A stretch of 54,597 nt of DNA from the NCBI GenBank assembly GCA_903933585.1, contig CAIZKO010000069.1, forward strand, positions 1 to 54,597, read 5' to 3'. A program made the translations under genes and the position numbers. Shown here piece after piece: positions 874 through 27,893 of this stretch. How positions within the stretch are numbered: position 1 is the stretch's first letter; the number at the start of each line of letters is the position of its first letter. This DNA comes from an uncultured Actinomycetes bacterium. Its GTDB lineage: Bacteria; Actinomycetota; Actinomycetes; Nanopelagicales; Nanopelagicaceae. The notes under the pieces were generated by a model, which saw nothing but the letters and a program-made list of their open reading frames with translations, did not search any database and was not told where the DNA came from.

Positions 874-1959
874 TTATTTACGGAGGCCAGCTCTGCGCAG
901 ATCAGAGATCTTCAAGGTGCCAGTCTTTGCATCGTTCTCTGCGCTCAAATAGAGACGTTGGATTGCAACCATAAGGGCTTCTACTACCGTTTCGCGGAAA
1001 GCGGGATCTGCGATCCGTTTGGCATCTCCAGGGTTGCTTTGATACCCCAAATCAATGCGCACTGTTGGAGATTTTGTAAGGCGCAGCAAATCCCAAGTCT
1101 TTGCATGAATTCGACAGTTGAGCAGGTCGGTGCGAGCACAAATTTCACGTTGCGCCAAGGTGGCAAATCGCTCGCCGACTATCGAGTGGACACCATGAGA
1201 ATCGCTCCCATAGTAATAAGTCGCAATCCCATGGGCTTGCTCATTTACGTAGCGATCTTGACGTAGGGAGATAACGAGGTCAGCGTTGGTCGCATTAGCA
1301 AACTCAATACGTTCGGACTCTTGCGGAGCAGAGGCCAGGGTCCGGGTAAGAAAGACATTGACACCCAGAGCAATCAAACGCCCCTCTAATCGCTGTGTAA
1401 GATCGAAGATATCTGGGGAATCTGAAGGATCAATGACAATTACTTTTCCAGAGAGGGCTGGTCCGCGTTCAGCACGTACCGCTGCATCGCGAAGTTGATT
1501 TGGAGCTCCGCCCGAAACAATCTTCTTTAATCGCAACATCGACATGATCGTTGCGGGGCCACACTTACCATCAACCTTGACCCCGACCGATTTCTGAAAT
1601 TCCATAACTGCAATTTCAGTATCTAATCCAAAGATTCCATCGACGCGACCACAATTGAACCCCATCTCACTCAATTGTGATTGCAGAGCAGCAATATCAT
1701 CGCCGCGCATCGGTGGAGAGGTAAGCGAGAGAACTCGGTCTCCAAGTTTCCATCTAGCTTCTTCCAGCGCGCGCAAGGTGATGGCATCGACCGTTCCAGA
1801 AACCGTTAATCCGCGCGATTGTTGAAACTCTTTGACGGCTGCGGCAACAGCGGCATCAAAGTGCGAGGATTCAACCTTCAATAAATTTAAGCGAGTGAGA
1901 TAGTTGGTCACTTGCAAAACAAGATCGCCCGATCCACCAAAGGTCAGATCGGGCGTCAT
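874..1959 (-). CDS. cwlM: CwlM-like pseudo-amidase regulating peptidoglycan precursor synthesis
   Basis: 361 aa. Two peptidoglycan-binding (PG_binding_1) repeats at about 9-68 and 85-145 precede an Amidase_3-like domain at about 172-340. The zinc site looks dead: the usual GHGG start motif is DPSDSP (177-182), the usual SIHAN motif is SLRQDR (231-236), and the catalytic Glu position is Asp in RIDLGYQSNP (301-310). WDLLRLT and the NDxxTGT tail (Thr346, Thr348) match my memory of mycobacterial CwlM, which does not cut peptidoglycan but activates MurA once phosphorylated by PknB. Position next to trxA-trxB-murJ supports orthology. No Shine-Dalgarno; a TAAAGT -10 lies 6 nt before the ATG, so the mRNA is probably leaderless. 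Confidence 0.85.
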   Translation of the reverse strand: MTPDLTFGGSGDLVLQVTNYLTRLNLLKVESSHFDAAVAAAVKEFQQSRGLTVSGTVDAITLRALEEARWKLGDRVLSLTSPPMRGDDIAALQSQLSEMGFNCGRVDGIFGLDTEIAVMEFQKSVGVKVDGKCGPATIMSMLRLKKIVSGGAPNQLRDAAVRAERGPALSGKVIVIDPSDSPDIFDLTQRLEGRLIALGVNVFLTRTLASAPQESERIEFANATNADLVISLRQDRYVNEQAHGIATYYYGSDSHGVHSIVGERFATLAQREICARTDLLNCRIHAKTWDLLRLTKSPTVRIDLGYQSNPGDAKRIADPAFRETVVEALMVAIQRLYLSAENDAKTGTLKISDLRRAGLRK

Positions 1960-1987: not shown

Positions 1988-2314
1988 TTATTGAATGTAG
2001 TCCGCTAGATCTTTGAGAAGAGCTGGCTTTGGCTTAGCCCCAACGATGCTTTTAACAACCTGGCCGCCGACAAATACATTCATTGTCGGGATCGAGGTGA
2101 TTCCATACTTCATTGCAATGGAAGCCTCTTCATCCGTATTAAGTTTTACGATCTTAATCTTTCCGGCGTGCTCGCCTGCGATCTCTTCCAAGATTGGGCC
2201 GACAGCGCGGCAGGGGCCACACCACTCTGCCCAGAAATCTACAAGCACGGGTGTCGTGCTCTTAAGAACGACCTCTTCGAATGTGGCAGCTGTTACTGGC
2301 GATGTATTGCTCAT
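1988..2314 (-). CDS. trxA: Thioredoxin
   Basis: 108 aa cytosolic disulfide reductase. The WCGPC redox motif is at residues 31-35, followed by the family's conserved cis-proline region SIPTMNVF. The ATG at 2314 was chosen because AGGGAGAG lies just upstream; an in-frame TTG at 2335 would add seven residues but has no such site. It is paired with trxB immediately upstream on the same strand, its electron donor. The trxB-trxA-cwlM order is conserved in actinobacteria. Confidence 0.95.
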   Translation of the reverse strand: MSNTSPVTAATFEEVVLKSTTPVLVDFWAEWCGPCRAVGPILEEIAGEHAGKIKIVKLNTDEEASIAMKYGITSIPTMNVFVGGQVVKSIVGAKPKPALLKDLADYIQ

Positions 2315-2372
2315 ATCTCTCCCTAGATTATTCAATTTAAACTACCTGGTTTACAAAATCAGAGTACGGATT

Positions 2373-3305
2373 CTAGTGTCCCGCTAAGAATCTTTCAGCG
2401 TCTAACGCGGCTTCACATCCGGTTCCCGCCGCCGTGATTGCCTGGCGGTAGGTGTGATCGACGAGATCCCCACAGGCAAATACCCCCGGGAGATTGGTTC
2501 GAGTAGAGCGGCCTTCAACTTTTACATAACCCTCAGCGTCGAGATCAACTTGCCCAACAAGGAGTTCAGAACGTGGAGTGTGGCCAATTGCTACAAAGAG
2601 TCCAGTAAAGGCGCGCTCACTTTCGCTACCGTCGACAGTGTTACGCAACTTAAGTCCAGTCACATTTTGATCACCGAGAACATCAATGACCTCGGTATTC
2701 CAAACGAACTCAATCTTTGGATTTGCGGTCGCTCTATCAATCATGATCTTGGATGCACGCAAAGAATCACGACGATGAATAACCACAACCTTAGATGCAA
2801 AACGTGTTAAGAAGTTGGCTTCTTCCATCGCCGAGTCACCGCCGCCAACAACGGCTATCTCCTGCTCCCTAAAGAAGAATCCATCACAGGTAGCGCACCA
2901 CGAAACGCCGCGACCAGATAGGCGTTTTTCGTTGACGAGGCCAATCTCTTTGTAAGCCGACCCTGTGGCGAGAATGACCGCCTTGGACCGAAGCACATTC
3001 CCGCTTCCATCGGTGAGAACTTTAATTTCTCCATCGAGTTTCATATCAACTATGTCATCTCGAACCAATTGGGTACCAAACTTTTCACACTGCGCTTTTA
3101 GGTTATCCATTAAATCTGGGCCGATGATCCCATCGGGGAACCCTGGAAAATTTTCAACCTCTGTGGTGTTCATCAGTGCACCGCCAGCGGTTACTGAACC
3201 CTCATACAGCACGGGTGCGAGCTGGGCGCGAGCTGCATAGATGCCTGCGGTATATCCAGCGGGGCCAGAACCTACGATAACTAGGTCATGGATTGTGTCA
3301 GTCAC
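2373..3305 (-). CDS. trxB: Thioredoxin reductase
   Basis: 310 aa, the normal length for the low-molecular-weight flavoenzyme that passes electrons from NADPH to thioredoxin. The FAD-binding GSGPAG is at 12-17, the redox-active CATC at 137-140, the NADPH-binding GGGDSA near 154, and the C-terminal FAD motif FACGDLVD is present. The start is a GTG at 3305 behind a purine-rich GAGAGAGATGG. It is followed by trxA after about 60 bases and preceded by murJ, so murJ-trxB-trxA may be partly co-transcribed. Confidence 0.95.
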   Translation of the reverse strand: MTDTIHDLVIVGSGPAGYTAGIYAARAQLAPVLYEGSVTAGGALMNTTEVENFPGFPDGIIGPDLMDNLKAQCEKFGTQLVRDDIVDMKLDGEIKVLTDGSGNVLRSKAVILATGSAYKEIGLVNEKRLSGRGVSWCATCDGFFFREQEIAVVGGGDSAMEEANFLTRFASKVVVIHRRDSLRASKIMIDRATANPKIEFVWNTEVIDVLGDQNVTGLKLRNTVDGSESERAFTGLFVAIGHTPRSELLVGQVDLDAEGYVKVEGRSTRTNLPGVFACGDLVDHTYRQAITAAGTGCEAALDAERFLAGH

Positions 3306-3345: not shown

Positions 3346-4938
3346 TTAGCGCCGAGGTTTAATAAAGAGGGAGAAAGCGGCGCCTACTTCCCCGATCTTA
3401 AAGGTCTTAGCCAAGGCCAGGTAGCCCAACCCGCTAGTGCAGAGAACAACTAATAGCTTCAGGCTATTCCCTCCTGGGATATGCCCCATGATGAGATAGA
3501 GCGGCACGGCGACCACGGCGTAAATCACAGCTAGGCGAAGATATAGACCGGTGATCTCACTCGTCCGAATTACGATGTCATATCTACGCAAGAGTCGTAT
3601 TGAGGTCCACGCGCCGATGTAATAACTCAATGCAAGAGCGGCGGCCAGCCCAACGGTCACCCATTTGGCAGGAAGTGTCATAGCGAACAAAAAGGCGATC
3701 AAACTCGCAACGATATTCATAATTGCGTTACTGAGCACCTGTAACTTCACATTTTCAAAGGCATTGAGACCACGCAGGGCGATCAAATTAACGCTGAGCG
3801 GCAACAGTCCAAGGGCAAAAGCGGAGAGCACTAAGCCTAGGTAGCGCGCATCGGCGTTGGAGATTCCAAAGAACAAAGTTCTTGTTATGAGTGGTCCAAA
3901 GAGCAGGAAGGCGATGGCGCTTGGCACGGTGATGATCCCAACCAGCCGAATAGCTCGCACCAACTCATCATGGATCTCTTTAAACTTCCGATCAATGGCG
4001 TGGCCCGAGAGTAAAGGCAAAATCGCCGTAACAATCGAGATGGTAATTACCGAGTGGGGCAACATGAGGATTAAGAATGCGTTTCCATAGGGTGTGTAAC
4101 CAACACCAGTAGTTATGCCCTCTTTAAGAGCTCTCACCGCAGCGCCGGTCGAGAGATTCACTGTAACGAGGTAGCTCAATTGCGAGAATGCCGCGAAGGC
4201 CAATGTCCACGAAGCCAAGTGGAGCGACTTCTTGATCTCGGGGTCGCGCCAGTCAAAGCGTGGACGGATCTTTATCCCAGTCTGCCTCAGGACCGGAATG
4301 AGACAAGCCAGCTGTACGACAAATCCCGCGGTCGTCCCAATCCCTAACCAAGTTGCTTGGCCTTGAGTGATCGTCGAAACTTTCCACCCTTTTGAAATAT
4401 GTAAGAAGTAACTAAATACCCCAATACCTACAATATTGTTGAAAACTGGAGCCCACATCATGGGACCAAACTTTCCTTTGGCATTGGCAATTTGGCCTAG
4501 AAGCGCGAAGAGACCCATAAAGAATATTTGTGGCAAGCAGTACCGCATAAAGAGAACGGTGAGATTAAATTCCGGTCGACCAATGTAGCTACTAGCAAAG
4601 AGTCGAACTAAGAGCGGGGCCGCAACGGTCGAAACTACGACAAGGACAGCCAAAAGAACCGCGGTCGCGGTCACCAAACGGGAGATGAATGCTGAACCGC
4701 CATCCGGTTCGCGAATTGCTCGCACCAACTGCGGAACGAAGACCGCGGTGAGCGCACCACCAATAATAAGGTTGTACAAAATATTGGGCATCGTGTTAGC
4801 GACGTTATATGTGTCTCCTAAGAGGGTGGTACCGAGTACTGCGACGAGAAGCAGCCCACGAAATAAGCCGGTGATGCGCGAGACAAATGTCCCAGCCGCC
4901 ATAATGGCGGAGGAGCGAACGATGGAGTTATCGCTCAT
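3346..4938 (-). CDS. murJ: Lipid II flippase MurJ (MviN family)
   Basis: 530 aa integral membrane protein of the MOP superfamily, with about 14 hydrophobic segments and the early conserved stretch SRITGLFRG. It moves lipid II across the cytoplasmic membrane for peptidoglycan synthesis. The mycobacterial protein, as I recall, carries a long C-terminal pseudokinase and extracellular part; this one stops right after the membrane core. Its ATG overlaps the stop of the DUF6049 gene by 4 bp, so the two are translationally coupled. The gene lies in the conserved block with trxB and cwlM. Confidence 0.93.
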   Translation of the reverse strand: MSDNSIVRSSAIMAAGTFVSRITGLFRGLLLVAVLGTTLLGDTYNVANTMPNILYNLIIGGALTAVFVPQLVRAIREPDGGSAFISRLVTATAVLLAVLVVVSTVAAPLLVRLFASSYIGRPEFNLTVLFMRYCLPQIFFMGLFALLGQIANAKGKFGPMMWAPVFNNIVGIGVFSYFLHISKGWKVSTITQGQATWLGIGTTAGFVVQLACLIPVLRQTGIKIRPRFDWRDPEIKKSLHLASWTLAFAAFSQLSYLVTVNLSTGAAVRALKEGITTGVGYTPYGNAFLILMLPHSVITISIVTAILPLLSGHAIDRKFKEIHDELVRAIRLVGIITVPSAIAFLLFGPLITRTLFFGISNADARYLGLVLSAFALGLLPLSVNLIALRGLNAFENVKLQVLSNAIMNIVASLIAFLFAMTLPAKWVTVGLAAALALSYYIGAWTSIRLLRRYDIVIRTSEITGLYLRLAVIYAVVAVPLYLIMGHIPGGNSLKLLVVLCTSGLGYLALAKTFKIGEVGAAFSLFIKPRR

Positions 4939-6035
4939 TTCTGCCTTCTTCTAATTCGTCGGATACTCTGAATGGTTGCAGCGATAAAGAGGACGATAGC
5001 CGCTCCAGTTGTGAACCAAGTGGCAACAGGGCTGATAACCGCCAAGGCAACTGGGTAAGTAATCGGATCACCCAATACATCACCGTGGGTATTGGTGATC
5101 TCCATCGTAAGTGCGGTGGATCCAGATGTAAGTACGGTGATCGGAACCATCACTTGAATCTTCGACTTGGCGGGGATTGTGAACTGCGGCAGAGAGCCGA
5201 CCTCTACCTTGAAATTGCTGGGAATTACGCTGAGATTCACCTTAATTTCGTTGGGGAAACCATTGGTGAGCGTAATTGGAAGGCTTTGATGCGTAGAAGT
5301 AACTGTAAATTTTCCGGGGCTCAGATGTGCCAGATGGATCTGGCTGTAGGCGGCGGCGGTGAGATCGCGTATGAGATAGGAGCGTCGATCTCTCGTGAGA
5401 TCTGGATTGAGAATTTTAATGAGCGCCAATCGGTAGGTATCAATTGCTGCAGGATCCACAAAACTGGCCGTTTGTGAAAAGTTAGCAGCAGCATCATTTA
5501 TTGCGGCGATATCCGAACTAGCGATGGAAAACCCACTGTGCGATCTATATTGAGCTGGATCGATTGCTGCGAGAGTCAGCAAAGCTTGCAGTCGGCTGCG
5601 CGATATAGATAGAACATAATTGACTTCGTGGGGTGAGAGTCGATTTACCCAATATGAAGAGGGATTGCCATAAGCCAACGGCAGAACGTTTGCAAATTTA
5701 ATATCGGCAGTTAGCTGCGTCAGCCAAGATTTTGCGAAGAGTTGTCCTGCGCCAGCGACTCCTGAGGTGAGCGTGTACCCCTTGCTCATGGCAATAACTT
5801 CTTCGATAAGAGCAGGATCAATAATCCATGTTCTAGTTCCAAGAGGCGGACTGAAGACTAATTGACCGAGGCGACCTGAGACTCCAAGTGATGTGGCAAG
5901 AGCGTCGTCAATAAATTCTCCGTTAATTTGGCGGTGAGTCGGTTCGGTGAGAAGAACTGAATTGCTCGCCTGGGCGACGGGAGTTGAAAGAAAGGCAATG
6001 ACAAGAGCGGCGATGAGGGATAGTAGGCGCTTCAT
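4935..6035 (-). CDS. DUF6049-like secreted membrane-anchored protein, short form
   Basis: 366 aa with an N-terminal signal peptide (MKRLLSLIAALVIAFLST, cleavage likely after VAQA), a long extracytoplasmic region and one C-terminal transmembrane helix followed by a basic tail (RRIRRRQK). Position between murJ and the Nudix gene matches the DUF6049 protein of other actinobacteria (Rv3909 in M. tuberculosis). That homologue is about twice as long as I remember, so this copy keeps roughly the C-terminal half. The function is unknown; fixed linkage to murJ suggests a cell-envelope role. It overlaps both neighbours by 4 bp. Confidence 0.7.
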   Translation of the reverse strand: MKRLLSLIAALVIAFLSTPVAQASNSVLLTEPTHRQINGEFIDDALATSLGVSGRLGQLVFSPPLGTRTWIIDPALIEEVIAMSKGYTLTSGVAGAGQLFAKSWLTQLTADIKFANVLPLAYGNPSSYWVNRLSPHEVNYVLSISRSRLQALLTLAAIDPAQYRSHSGFSIASSDIAAINDAAANFSQTASFVDPAAIDTYRLALIKILNPDLTRDRRSYLIRDLTAAAYSQIHLAHLSPGKFTVTSTHQSLPITLTNGFPNEIKVNLSVIPSNFKVEVGSLPQFTIPAKSKIQVMVPITVLTSGSTALTMEITNTHGDVLGDPITYPVALAVISPVATWFTTGAAIVLFIAATIQSIRRIRRRQK

Positions 6036-24610: not shown

Positions 24611-24868
24611 TCAGCGCCACTTTGTCGCCAGGGTGAAGCCCCCAGCGATAAAACCGAAGCCAATAACCATATTCCAGGCTCCAATATGCGGAATTGGGTA
24701 GGTGGTGTTGCTGACGTAGTAAATCACGATCCATACCAGACCAGCGAGAAATCCAGCGAGCATCAAAGGAGCGAGCCATTTTGGGCTCTCGGTTGGAAGT
24801 GGAGCCTTCTGGGCTACCTCATCCGGAATGTAGACCGGATCCTTCTTGCGACTACGCGATTTAGGCAT
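24611..24868 (-). CDS. crgA: Cell division protein CrgA
   Basis: 85 aa, exact family size. It begins MPKSRSRKKDPVYIP, then has two transmembrane helices (about 31-51 and 63-81) and ends ATKWR. CrgA is an actinobacterial divisome protein that links FtsZ/FtsQ and wall enzymes. The ATG at 24868 has TACCTT six bases upstream and no Shine-Dalgarno; frame continues upstream but into the divergent trpG promoter. The crgA-trpG-pknB order is conserved in actinobacteria. Confidence 0.95.
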   Translation of the reverse strand: MPKSRSRKKDPVYIPDEVAQKAPLPTESPKWLAPLMLAGFLAGLVWIVIYYVSNTTYPIPHIGAWNMVIGFGFIAGGFTLATKWR

Positions 24869-24874
24869 GAGTAA

Positions 24875-24880
24875 AAGGTA
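24875..24880 (-). promoter_or_regulatory. Leaderless -10 element for crgA
   Basis: TACCTT on the minus strand, six bases before the ATG at 24868. Confidence 0.5.
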
Positions 24881-24916
24881 CACCAATATTAAAAATGTCA
24901 CCGTCATTCCACTCGG

Positions 24917-24922
24917 TAGCCT
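24917..24922 (+). promoter_or_regulatory. Leaderless -10 element for trpG
   Basis: TAGCCT on the plus strand, six bases before the ATG at 24929. Confidence 0.5.
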
Positions 24923-24928
24923 TACCCC

Positions 24929-25555
24929 ATGACCAGAATCCTCGTCGTCGATAATTACGACTCCTTCGTCTACAACTTGGTCCAATATTTAGGCCAATTA
25001 GGCGCAGATGTAACCGTGCGTCGGAACGATGAGGTCGATTTCGCAACCCTGGAAAGCTTCGATGGAATCCTGATCTCTCCAGGTCCCGGAACTCCAGAGG
25101 CAGCGGGGCAGAGCATCGAGCTCGTTAAGTTCGCCACCGCCAAGAGCATTCCACTTTTGGGAGTCTGTTTAGGGCATCAGGCTATCGCCGTCGCATTTGG
25201 GGCCACAGTTTCCCGAGCTCCTGAACTCCTGCACGGAAAAACTTCAATCGTGCACCATACAAATAAAGGTTTACTAGTAGATCTGCCATCACCCTTTATC
25301 GCTACGCGTTACCACTCACTAGCTATTGAACCCGCAACACTTCCTGATGAATTGGAAGTGACCGGGAAGACGGATTCTGGCGTTGTGATGGCGATCGAAC
25401 ATACGACTCTTCCAATATCTGGCGTGCAATTCCATCCCGAATCGGTACTAACGGAACATGGTCACCAAATGCTTGGCAATTGGTTGGAACGTTGCGGAGA
25501 TGCTGGTGCACGTGCCCGTTCTGAAGGACTCTCACCAGTCGTAAATAGAGTTTGA
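24929..25555 (+). CDS. trpG: Anthranilate/aminodeoxychorismate synthase glutamine amidotransferase subunit
   Basis: 208 aa class I glutamine amidotransferase. The nucleophile elbow is GVCLGHQAIA (Cys), and the His-Glu pair is in FHPESVLTEHG. It releases ammonia from glutamine for anthranilate (tryptophan) or aminodeoxychorismate (folate) synthesis; the two cannot be separated here because no TrpE/PabB is nearby. Position between crgA and pknB is the classical actinobacterial one. It is probably leaderless and ends 11 bp before the convergent pknB stop. Confidence 0.92.
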   Translation: MTRILVVDNYDSFVYNLVQYLGQLGADVTVRRNDEVDFATLESFDGILISPGPGTPEAAGQSIELVKFATAKSIPLLGVCLGHQAIAVAFGATVSRAPELLHGKTSIVHHTNKGLLVDLPSPFIATRYHSLAIEPATLPDELEVTGKTDSGVVMAIEHTTLPISGVQFHPESVLTEHGHQMLGNWLERCGDAGARARSEGLSPVVNRV

Positions 25556-25566
25556 ACTAACTCGCA

Positions 25567-27120
25567 TTAATTAGTTGGTTGTGTGTTTACAGTAATCGTT
25601 ACCGAAGAACCAATATTTTGCGTAGTGCCAGCTACGGGTGCTTGAGCTAAAACAATTTGAGCAGCCTGGGTTGCATCATATGCAGTTGCGGTGCGCACTA
25701 AGAATCCCGCTTGGGTAAGAGTTGTAATTGCCTGTACTTCACTTAATCCAACCAAGTTTGGTACTTGCAAACTTCCACTGGCGATTTGCAGTACAACCCC
25801 CGCGCCTGCAGGCAAGATACTTCCAGGAGATGGATTCACTGCGAGCACAGTTCCGGGAGCTTGATTTGAATCAGTTGGGATCGTTTGGGCGACGAGTAAA
25901 CCAACAGCTGTAAGGGCGCTTCTCGCATCTGCAAGTGATAATCCCACTAAGTTAATTGGGATCGCGGTATTTCCAGCCCCAGTGGATTCGGTCAAGGTAA
26001 TGCTGCTCCCCGGGATAACCTTCGCATCGGCGAGCGGAAGTTGACTTGAGATGCGACCCTTGGGAATCGACGATGATGGTCCATCTTGAATATTGATCGT
26101 AAAGTTAGGAAGTAACGCTCGAGCCTGCGCCTCGGTGAGGCCAACGACATTTGGAACCTGCAAGGTAGGAGCGCTCGGATTCTTTACCTGGGTATACAGA
26201 GTGGATCCTGCAATGAGTGCAATGGCCACTGCCACTCCACCGAAGAGGAATAAGCGACGTTTTGATTTCGTGCGCCGGATCTTTGTTGTTACTTGCTCTC
26301 CGCGCATCGCCCGCTGTAAATCTTCTAACATCGCTCCAGCATCTTGGTAACGATCATTGGGATCTTTATGAAGGGCGACCTGAATAATTGTCTCGAGATT
26401 GGGGTCTATGTCGGGGTTGATATCAGATGGCGCCGGGAGGGGAGCCGATACATGTTGGAAGGCGATTGATACCGGAGTATCACCGATATAAGGCGGTCTT
26501 CCAACTAACAATTCATACATCAAGCATCCAACTGAGTAAATATCACTCCTGGCATCTGCATATTCACCTGTTGCTTGTTCGGGCGATAAATACTGTGCTG
26601 TACCGACAACATTCCAGGTATTTGTCATGGTGGCGCCGATATCATCCAACGCGCGAGCAATCCCAAAGTCCATCACCTTTACCTTGCCAGAGTCGGTGAT
26701 CATAATATTTCCCGGTTTAATATCGCGGTGAATAATTCCCTGCGCGTGTGAATACTCGAGCGCCTCGAGAATTTCGGCGACGATCTCCACTGCTTCATCT
26801 TGTGAGATTTCTGCATCCGATTGCAGAACTTGACGCAAGGTGTGTCCCTTGACAAGCTCCATCACAATATAGGAATTCGAACCGTCTTCTCCGGAATCAA
26901 ATACTGCAACGATGCCAGGATTGTTCAAACCTCCCGCAGCAAGCGCCTCCTTTTTAAAACGAGCAACAAATGCGGGATCGCGTGCTAAATCGCTGCGCAG
27001 GATCTTGACTGCTACCTTGCGGTGTAGGCGTAGATCTTCCGCAATGTAAACATCTGCCATACCGCCAGTTCCAATCATCGCTCCGATTTCGTAGCGACTA
27101 TTGAATATTTTCTTGTTCAT
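25567..27120 (-). CDS. pknB: Serine/threonine protein kinase with PASTA domains (PknB-like)
   Basis: 517 aa. An intracellular kinase domain (9-270) shows GTGGMADVY, Lys39, HRD (132-134), DFG (152-154) and an activation loop with several Thr (TMTNTWNVVGT). A transmembrane helix at about 291-312 leads to three PASTA repeats outside (VPNVVGLTEAQARALL, INLVGLSLADARSAL, VPNLVGLSEVQAITTL), one fewer than in mycobacterial PknB. It senses muropeptides/lipid II and controls wall growth; CwlM, encoded at 874-1959, is a likely target. It overlaps the PP2C gene by 4 bp. Confidence 0.95.
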   Translation of the reverse strand: MNKKIFNSRYEIGAMIGTGGMADVYIAEDLRLHRKVAVKILRSDLARDPAFVARFKKEALAAGGLNNPGIVAVFDSGEDGSNSYIVMELVKGHTLRQVLQSDAEISQDEAVEIVAEILEALEYSHAQGIIHRDIKPGNIMITDSGKVKVMDFGIARALDDIGATMTNTWNVVGTAQYLSPEQATGEYADARSDIYSVGCLMYELLVGRPPYIGDTPVSIAFQHVSAPLPAPSDINPDIDPNLETIIQVALHKDPNDRYQDAGAMLEDLQRAMRGEQVTTKIRRTKSKRRLFLFGGVAVAIALIAGSTLYTQVKNPSAPTLQVPNVVGLTEAQARALLPNFTINIQDGPSSSIPKGRISSQLPLADAKVIPGSSITLTESTGAGNTAIPINLVGLSLADARSALTAVGLLVAQTIPTDSNQAPGTVLAVNPSPGSILPAGAGVVLQIASGSLQVPNLVGLSEVQAITTLTQAGFLVRTATAYDATQAAQIVLAQAPVAGTTQNIGSSVTITVNTQPTN

Positions 27121-27893
27121 ACGCGGGCCGCCCCTAGTAATTCAATGGCAGGCTCTACTTCAGTTTCAATAATCTCAGCCCAGAGAATCGTCACATTATC
27201 TGGTGCGCCTTTTTCGAGAACCACAGCGATTAATTGATTAACTACCTCAGCAGGGTCGGAGTTCTTAATGACATTAACAATTTCAAGATCAGAGAGGACT
27301 GAACTGAGGCCATCGCTGCACAGTAGAAAGTGGTCTCCCAATTTCGCCTCAAAGAGGTTGAGTATTGGGTCGATCCCAGAGTCGCCAATCAACGCTTGGG
27401 TGAGCAGCGATCTTTGGGGATGGTTAATAACTTCATCAGCGGTCAGGCGGCCTTGGTCTAACAACTCTTGCATCACCGTGTGGTCGTAGCTCAGTTGAAT
27501 TAATTTCTTCCCGTTCCACTGGTAGCAACGAGAATCACCAATATGAAGGAGTTCAACACGATCGCCGTTGAGGTGGAGCGCGGTGAGGGTTGTGCCCATC
27601 CCTTGCAAGCTGCGATCGCTACTGGCCACCTCTGCGATCTCATGATCAATTGAGAAGGAGATATTGAGGAGCAGATCTTCGCGTGATTCAGAATCCAACT
27701 CCGCGTTATTGAGAACTTCACTCAATTCTTTAACGGAGGTAATCGCAATTTTGGAGGCAACCTCTCCTCCAGCGTGGCCGCCCATCCCATCAGCGACTGC
27801 TACCAGCCTCGCGGAGACTAGGGCCGAATCCTCATTGCCATCTCTTACAAGGCCGAGCTCGCTACGAGCTATAACCTTGAATGAGCGATTCAT
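27117..27893 (-). CDS. pstP: PP2C-type Ser/Thr phosphatase (PstP-like, soluble form)
   Basis: 258 aa. PP2C metal motifs are present in order: DGNEDS, VADGMGGHAGGE, LLHIGDSRCY, LLCSDGLSS and DNVTI. It reverses phosphorylation by the PASTA kinase, with which it is translationally coupled. Mycobacterial PstP has a membrane helix and outer domain; this protein stops after the catalytic domain, so it is cytosolic. pknA, pbpA, rodA and the FHA genes that normally stand here are missing. It is probably leaderless (TAGGCT six bases before the ATG). Confidence 0.93.
   Translation of the reverse strand: MNRSFKVIARSELGLVRDGNEDSALVSARLVAVADGMGGHAGGEVASKIAITSVKELSEVLNNAELDSESREDLLLNISFSIDHEIAEVASSDRSLQGMGTTLTALHLNGDRVELLHIGDSRCYQWNGKKLIQLSYDHTVMQELLDQGRLTADEVINHPQRSLLTQALIGDSGIDPILNLFEAKLGDHFLLCSDGLSSVLSDLEIVNVIKNSDPAEVVNQLIAVVLEKGAPDNVTILWAEIIETEVEPAIELLGAARV

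Follow-up and report, generated by a model that had tools for sequence, protein, structure and literature searches.

CwlM with a degenerate zinc site and a conserved tail, and its association with Asp-type MurA, in Nanopelagicaceae

CwlM in mycobacteria and at the Nanopelagicaceae locus

Mycobacterial CwlM (Rv3915/MSMEG_6935), a PknB substrate and MurA activator, is the closest described counterpart of the protein considered here. PknB phosphorylates the CwlM tail and phospho-CwlM activates MurA (Boutte et al. 2016, PMC4946905), in agreement with the role that a sequence-only reading of this DNA had named. In the same study, key zinc ligands were not conserved in mycobacterial CwlM, the Asp at its fourth position was counted among the remaining ligands, an allele stripped of all four ligands still complemented, and, in a survey of 97 homologues, potential phosphorylation motifs (PTG/TGT) were conserved across most clades of actinobacteria irrespective of zinc-ligand conservation. 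In M. tuberculosis, T382 of CwlM is a PknB phosphorylation target and the T382A change is growth-critical; the phosphorylated protein binds FhaA and the non-phosphorylated protein binds the MurJ linker (Turapov et al. 2018, PMC6180346). Salt bridges have been predicted from CwlM E178/E179, within the REEEL site, to MurA R346/R355, along with hydrogen bonds from MurA D348 and H350, and conservative mutants of the charged interface had only mild in vivo effects in M. smegmatis (Hunt-Serracin et al. 2025, PMC12723410).

The window, meaning the whole stretch of 54,597 nucleotides that was analysed, comes from a small-genome freshwater actinobacterium of the Nanopelagicaceae, whose genome (1.53 Mb, 135 contigs, 92.6% complete) contains a single Amidase_3 match, the product of cwlM. 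Its relatives within the order belong to a single family (13 genera, genome sizes of roughly 1-2 Mb), and CwlM is retained in 120 of 121 reduced genomes. In the window, cwlM is an exact open reading frame of 361 amino acids (874..1959, minus strand). A domain search of its product recovers two stretches of PG_binding_1 (E 2.9e-28), the second at residues 85-140 (1540..1707, minus) following the first, N-terminal repeat, and then Amidase_3 (E 2.8e-23), placed by Pfam at residues 186-334 (958..1404, minus) and here a pseudo-enzyme. Its syntenic neighbours are trxA (1988..2335, minus) and trxB (2373..3305, minus), and the order nudix-DUF6049-murJ-trxB-trxA-cwlM is common to the window and to genome G204, whose CwlM (L059/L239) is 42% identical to that of the window across 340 amino acids. 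The G204 protein has a tail of mycobacterial type, NDRPTGTFTFAELLA, from which we infer that family f4 is Mycobacteriaceae, a peptide for comparison being given in PMC6180346. The adjacency of cwlM to trxA, trxB and murJ is the same in this mycobacterial-type genome and in other families.

Because of these domains and of orthology in a conserved gene order, the comparison of sequences confirms the gene as CwlM, orthologous to that of mycobacteria, and the earlier identification is borne out by domain order, gene order and TGT tail. The likeness to Rv3915/MSMEG_6935 extends to the murJ-trxB-trxA-cwlM neighbourhood, a degenerate zinc site, a TGT tail with the critical Thr, and an Asp-type MurA in the genome. 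No secretion signal is apparent by eye at the N-terminus. NCBIfam has no fitting CwlM-specific model, every match falling below its cut-off, and a search for CwlM on viral contigs was set aside after yielding a single match, which was partial and covered the PG-binding repeat. Several observations on neighbouring and related sequences are recorded here. The DUF6049 protein of the window (4935-6035) is short (366 amino acids) and matches only the end of its profile (551-703 of 708). CwlM of genus g2 (e.g. L039, L050, L047) is apparently shorter at the N-terminus by some 40 residues, which takes away part of its first PG-binding repeat. CwlM of Nanopelagicaceae type also occurs in public records that bear the names Bifidobacterium breve or Streptomyces griseus (L098, L103, L118, L159, L160), which are probably mislabelled MAGs.

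The zinc site and the C-terminal tail

Zinc and catalytic columns were located by alignment to sister sequences with an intact site. In that alignment, D180 (1420..1422, minus) replaces the first zinc His, the next loop, which carries the zinc Glu, is deleted, R233 (1261..1263, minus) replaces the second zinc His, and D303 (1051..1053, minus) replaces the catalytic Glu, a position also occupied by Asp in mycobacteria. DPSDSP, SLRQDR and RIDLGYQ, the motifs that the sequence-only reading had singled out, are all correct, with the correction that the Asp at the fourth position is the mycobacterial residue too, and its impression of a site more degraded than in mycobacteria holds: the window pattern, D-(deleted)-R-D, has none of the four canonical residues of active Amidase_3 (His-Glu-His plus Glu), whereas Mycobacteriaceae have R-E-R-D or similar, keeping E2 and sharing the final Asp with the window. 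Zinc-intact CwlM, found in most other sampled actinomycete families and in genus g8, has the same architecture, in many cases with an xTG tail, but its ligands (HEHE or HEHD) are those destroyed in the window protein.

Within crown Nanopelagicaceae, the two His columns vary widely, ranking 316th and 281st of 361 in conservation, and g8, the sister of the crown within the family, retains H-E-H-E. On a tree of 124 CwlM rows, computed without the zinc-ligand columns, the distribution of intact and degenerate sites takes six changes, at least five of them forced by well supported branches. Since g8 keeps HEHE and the tree needs six changes, the loss of all canonical ligands in the window lineage, loop deletion included, is on phylogenetic grounds independent of the mycobacterial loss. 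Other independent losses of the CwlM zinc site were seen in families f8, f85 and f87 (L229, L230, L221, L222, L225); CwlM of f85 and f87 is also without a clear TG tail.

An amidase fold is retained in the predicted structure (mean pLDDT 76.7), whose nearest amidases include LytH, Rv3717 and CwlV, with TM-scores by target of 0.82 for 4m6i_A and 0.80 for 1jwq. Rv3717/Ami1 and CwlV are Amidase_3 enzymes of the same fold but possess a catalytic zinc site, which the window protein lacks. Its tail, DAKTGTL (residues 343-349; 913..933, minus), is predicted to be disordered, with pLDDT below 50, and carries T346 and T348, equivalent to T382 and T384 of M. tuberculosis, within the NDAKTGT motif as claimed earlier; K350 stands at the position of T386, a further difference from mycobacterial CwlM. 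The C-terminal TGT tail is shown by alignment to be under strong constraint: across 53 crown Nanopelagicaceae, T346 and G347 never vary and T348 hardly does, and the tail is thus conserved in close relatives. CwlM in this lineage is a dead amidase whose constrained tail is probably phosphorylated. Zinc loss with a retained tail is a further, more extreme case of the pattern described by Boutte et al. (2016) and is not new in principle; a pseudo-amidase with a phospho-tail had already been described, and the finding as first given is near ordinary.

CwlM and Asp-type MurA

The new element is the joint inheritance of CwlM and one form of MurA, the Asp-type clade. The genome of the window encodes a single Asp-type MurA, with Asp at the catalytic Cys position (G000:C20:9282-10550). 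In the class sample, genomes with and without CwlM were separated by a gap in best scores, about 1e-67 versus about 1e-17. All CwlM-positive genomes in two sets (41 and 10) have a MurA at 55-64% identity to that of the window genome, a few of the matches being in pieces at contig ends, and 38 of 38 genomes lacking CwlM have only MurA that is at most 42% identical to it. Every MurA orthologue read from CwlM-positive genomes was Asp-type (49/49 genomes outside Nanopelagicaceae and 59/59 within), counts that refer to genomes chosen by hand rather than to independent events on the species tree, and from which some genomes with divergent CwlM, in families f83, f86 and f91, were left out. Cys-type residues were found throughout 18 MurA rows from 17 CwlM-lacking genomes and throughout eight second MurA copies from CwlM-positive genomes, and the distribution of Asp and Cys on the MurA tree corresponds to a single change. 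The CwlM-bearing genus of family f6 (g19) and that of family f8 (g256) have Asp-type MurA, and the tested sister genera are without both. No report of this co-occurrence was found in the open-access papers on CwlM that were checked, nor was any mention of CwlM together with Nanopelagic* found in the open-access papers searched. Through this association, a genome sequence by itself predicts whether an actinobacterium is likely to have its MurA under CwlM control. The association also suggests a tie between that control and the Asp-type MurA lineage, and it lends evolutionary support to the MurA surface proposed as the CwlM contact.

That surface differs here on both proteins. RDAAV (residues 157-161; 1477..1491, minus) is the equivalent of the mycobacterial REEEL site, with Ala at the acidic 178/179 positions, and MurA of the window genome has T and S at the positions of R346 and R355, so that the mycobacterial-type pairing of REEEL with R346/R355 is absent; acids at CwlM 178/179 are mostly replaced in the crown. 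From a first MurA set of 25 genomes, with three g5 and g10 sequences, which are intermediate, set aside, 15 positions emerged as basic in 11/11 non-crown sequences, and 13 of them stay basic in 11/11 crown sequences, the two lost being 346 and 355. A larger set contains 207 columns with one residue at 85% or more outside Nanopelagicaceae, in 10 of which that residue accounts for no more than 25% of the crown; these include both 346 and 355, with a chance probability, by our own arithmetic, of about 0.002. D348 and H350 are kept in every Nanopelagicaceae MurA read. Genus g10 still has both arginines; at 355, a basic residue also remains in g5 and in part of g3.

Within Nanopelagicaceae, the CwlM acids and MurA R346/R355 have a raw Spearman correlation of 0.47, but phylogenetically independent pairs, which are far too few, gave no significant covariation between CwlM and MurA residues. 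Co-evolution of these residues is therefore not claimed, and the erosion of the salt bridge is best read as relaxation in one lineage. With the predicted contacts replaced on MurA and CwlM, the MurA arm may therefore be weakened or replaced. The proposal that this arm has been kept draws strength from the Asp-type MurA of every CwlM-positive genome read, the window's included, and is qualified by the eroded salt-bridge residues of both partners; judged from sequence, the arm is probably kept but remodelled.

A proposed reduced circuit and alternative readings

The other arm of the mycobacterial circuit is missing. Adjoining trxB, murJ (3346..4938, minus) encodes 530 amino acids in which a domain search finds the MurJ domain only, without linker or pseudokinase extension, as had been noted earlier. 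In 63 loci from Nanopelagicaceae, murJ and trxB are never more than 219 nt apart, and every murJ frame has 590 codons or fewer. FhaA_N was matched in 259 of 296 class genomes, a sample that includes 33 Nanopelagicaceae, none of them among the matches listed, which therefore gives 259/263 for the rest of the class sample. It was also absent from 19/19 Nanopelagicaceae searched directly (the window's own genome and 18 others), zinc-intact g8 included, and the reported absence of the MurJ-FhaA arm is upheld by a missing FhaA in all Nanopelagicaceae tested and by the short MurJ. Four other families have a stand-alone gene beside murJ (L242:5088-6698, L244:5129-6820, L245:5071-6543, L246:4654-6288) that shares homology with the C-terminal region of mycobacterial MurJ and, because its Pkinase match is weak, is read as probably a pseudokinase. 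Given FhaA_N in 259/263 other class genomes and this gene beside murJ in four families, the state in Nanopelagicaceae is most simply a secondary loss of the MurJ/FhaA arm rather than its late arrival, and the suggestion that the CwlM-MurA arm is the older one is thus not supported. The statement that no FHA gene is present is right for the window itself, but one lies on another contig of the genome (L197:7312-7809, minus, contig C76), encoding its single FHA protein, with a possible N-terminal TST motif. Its gcvH-like and MerR-like neighbours presumably identify it as GarA/OdhI-type. Exactly one FHA match per genome was found in 61/61 Nanopelagicaceae genomes.

The PASTA kinase and PP2C phosphatase reported for the window were both found, in adjoining genes: the candidate CwlM kinase, a PASTA Ser/Thr kinase, at 25567..27120 (minus) and the candidate CwlM phosphatase at 27117..27893 (minus). 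A second PASTA Ser/Thr kinase of 607 amino acids is encoded on contig C100 of the same genome (L248:403-2226, plus), and the CwlM kinase is therefore not assignable from the window alone. The pknB region of the window (24611-27893) contains only crgA, a glutamine amidotransferase gene, the PASTA kinase and the PP2C gene, without pknA, pbpA, rodA, fhaB or fhaA. All five of these are included in the order of the pknB region in Mycobacterium.

We consider it rather probable that CwlM of this lineage is a pseudo-amidase acting as a signalling protein, in a kinase-phosphatase switch on Asp-type MurA from which the FhaA and MurJ-pseudokinase parts have been lost. By analogy with mycobacteria, CwlM would be cytoplasmic, one of the two PASTA kinases would phosphorylate T346 during growth, phospho-CwlM would stimulate the single Asp-type MurA, and with it the first committed step of peptidoglycan synthesis, and the PP2C phosphatase would reset CwlM. 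Contact with MurA probably persists through the conserved D348/H350, with the surrounding salt bridges decayed. The switch could instead have left MurA, at least at the mycobacterial site, with another wall or membrane protein, such as the short MurJ or a divisome component, as the essential partner; this we regard as unlikely. A salt bridge eroded on both crown proteins beside a constant tail would fit such a change, as would the binding of MurJ by non-phosphorylated mycobacterial CwlM (PMC6180346), yet the MurJ linker that CwlM binds is absent from the 530-amino-acid protein, CwlM still occurs together with an Asp-type MurA in which D348 and H350 are conserved, and independent pairs show no significant residue covariation.

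Doubt about the switch itself would arise if the tail were conserved for a reason independent of phosphorylation, for example as a docking peptide, and CwlM were a constitutive scaffold. In its favour, D343, A344, D353 and L354 equal T346 in invariance, but the matching Thr382 of M. tuberculosis is phosphorylated by PknB and growth-critical (PMC6180346), and the PASTA kinase and PP2C pair has been retained despite genome reduction, so that we hold a scaffold to be improbable. With FhaA lost and one FHA match in each of 61 genomes, GarA-type by neighbourhood, GarA might read phospho-CwlM in place of FhaA and so couple nitrogen/TCA metabolism with the building of the wall; GarA is already known for a role of its own elsewhere among actinobacteria, however, and this link is very improbable. 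Hardly credible is an amidase that persists with relocated metal ligands. The fold is retained and several His, Asp and Glu residues are invariant, but the loop between H1 and E2 is missing, the columns of H1 and H3 are highly variable in the crown, and the invariant H285/W289 region also occurs in zinc-intact and mycobacterial CwlM and is therefore no pointer to a new zinc site; no candidate for a relocated site was seen.

Across Actinomycetes, there is about an even chance that CwlM and Asp-type MurA are inherited as a single regulatory module whose members are lost or replaced jointly, and that in Nanopelagicaceae this module has been stripped to a core of dead amidase, tail and Asp-type MurA with D348/H350, with decay of FhaA, of the MurJ pseudokinase and of the rim of salt bridges. 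If the proposed circuit is correct, Nanopelagicaceae would represent a natural minimal form of it, one that can do without the salt bridges, FhaA and the MurJ pseudokinase.
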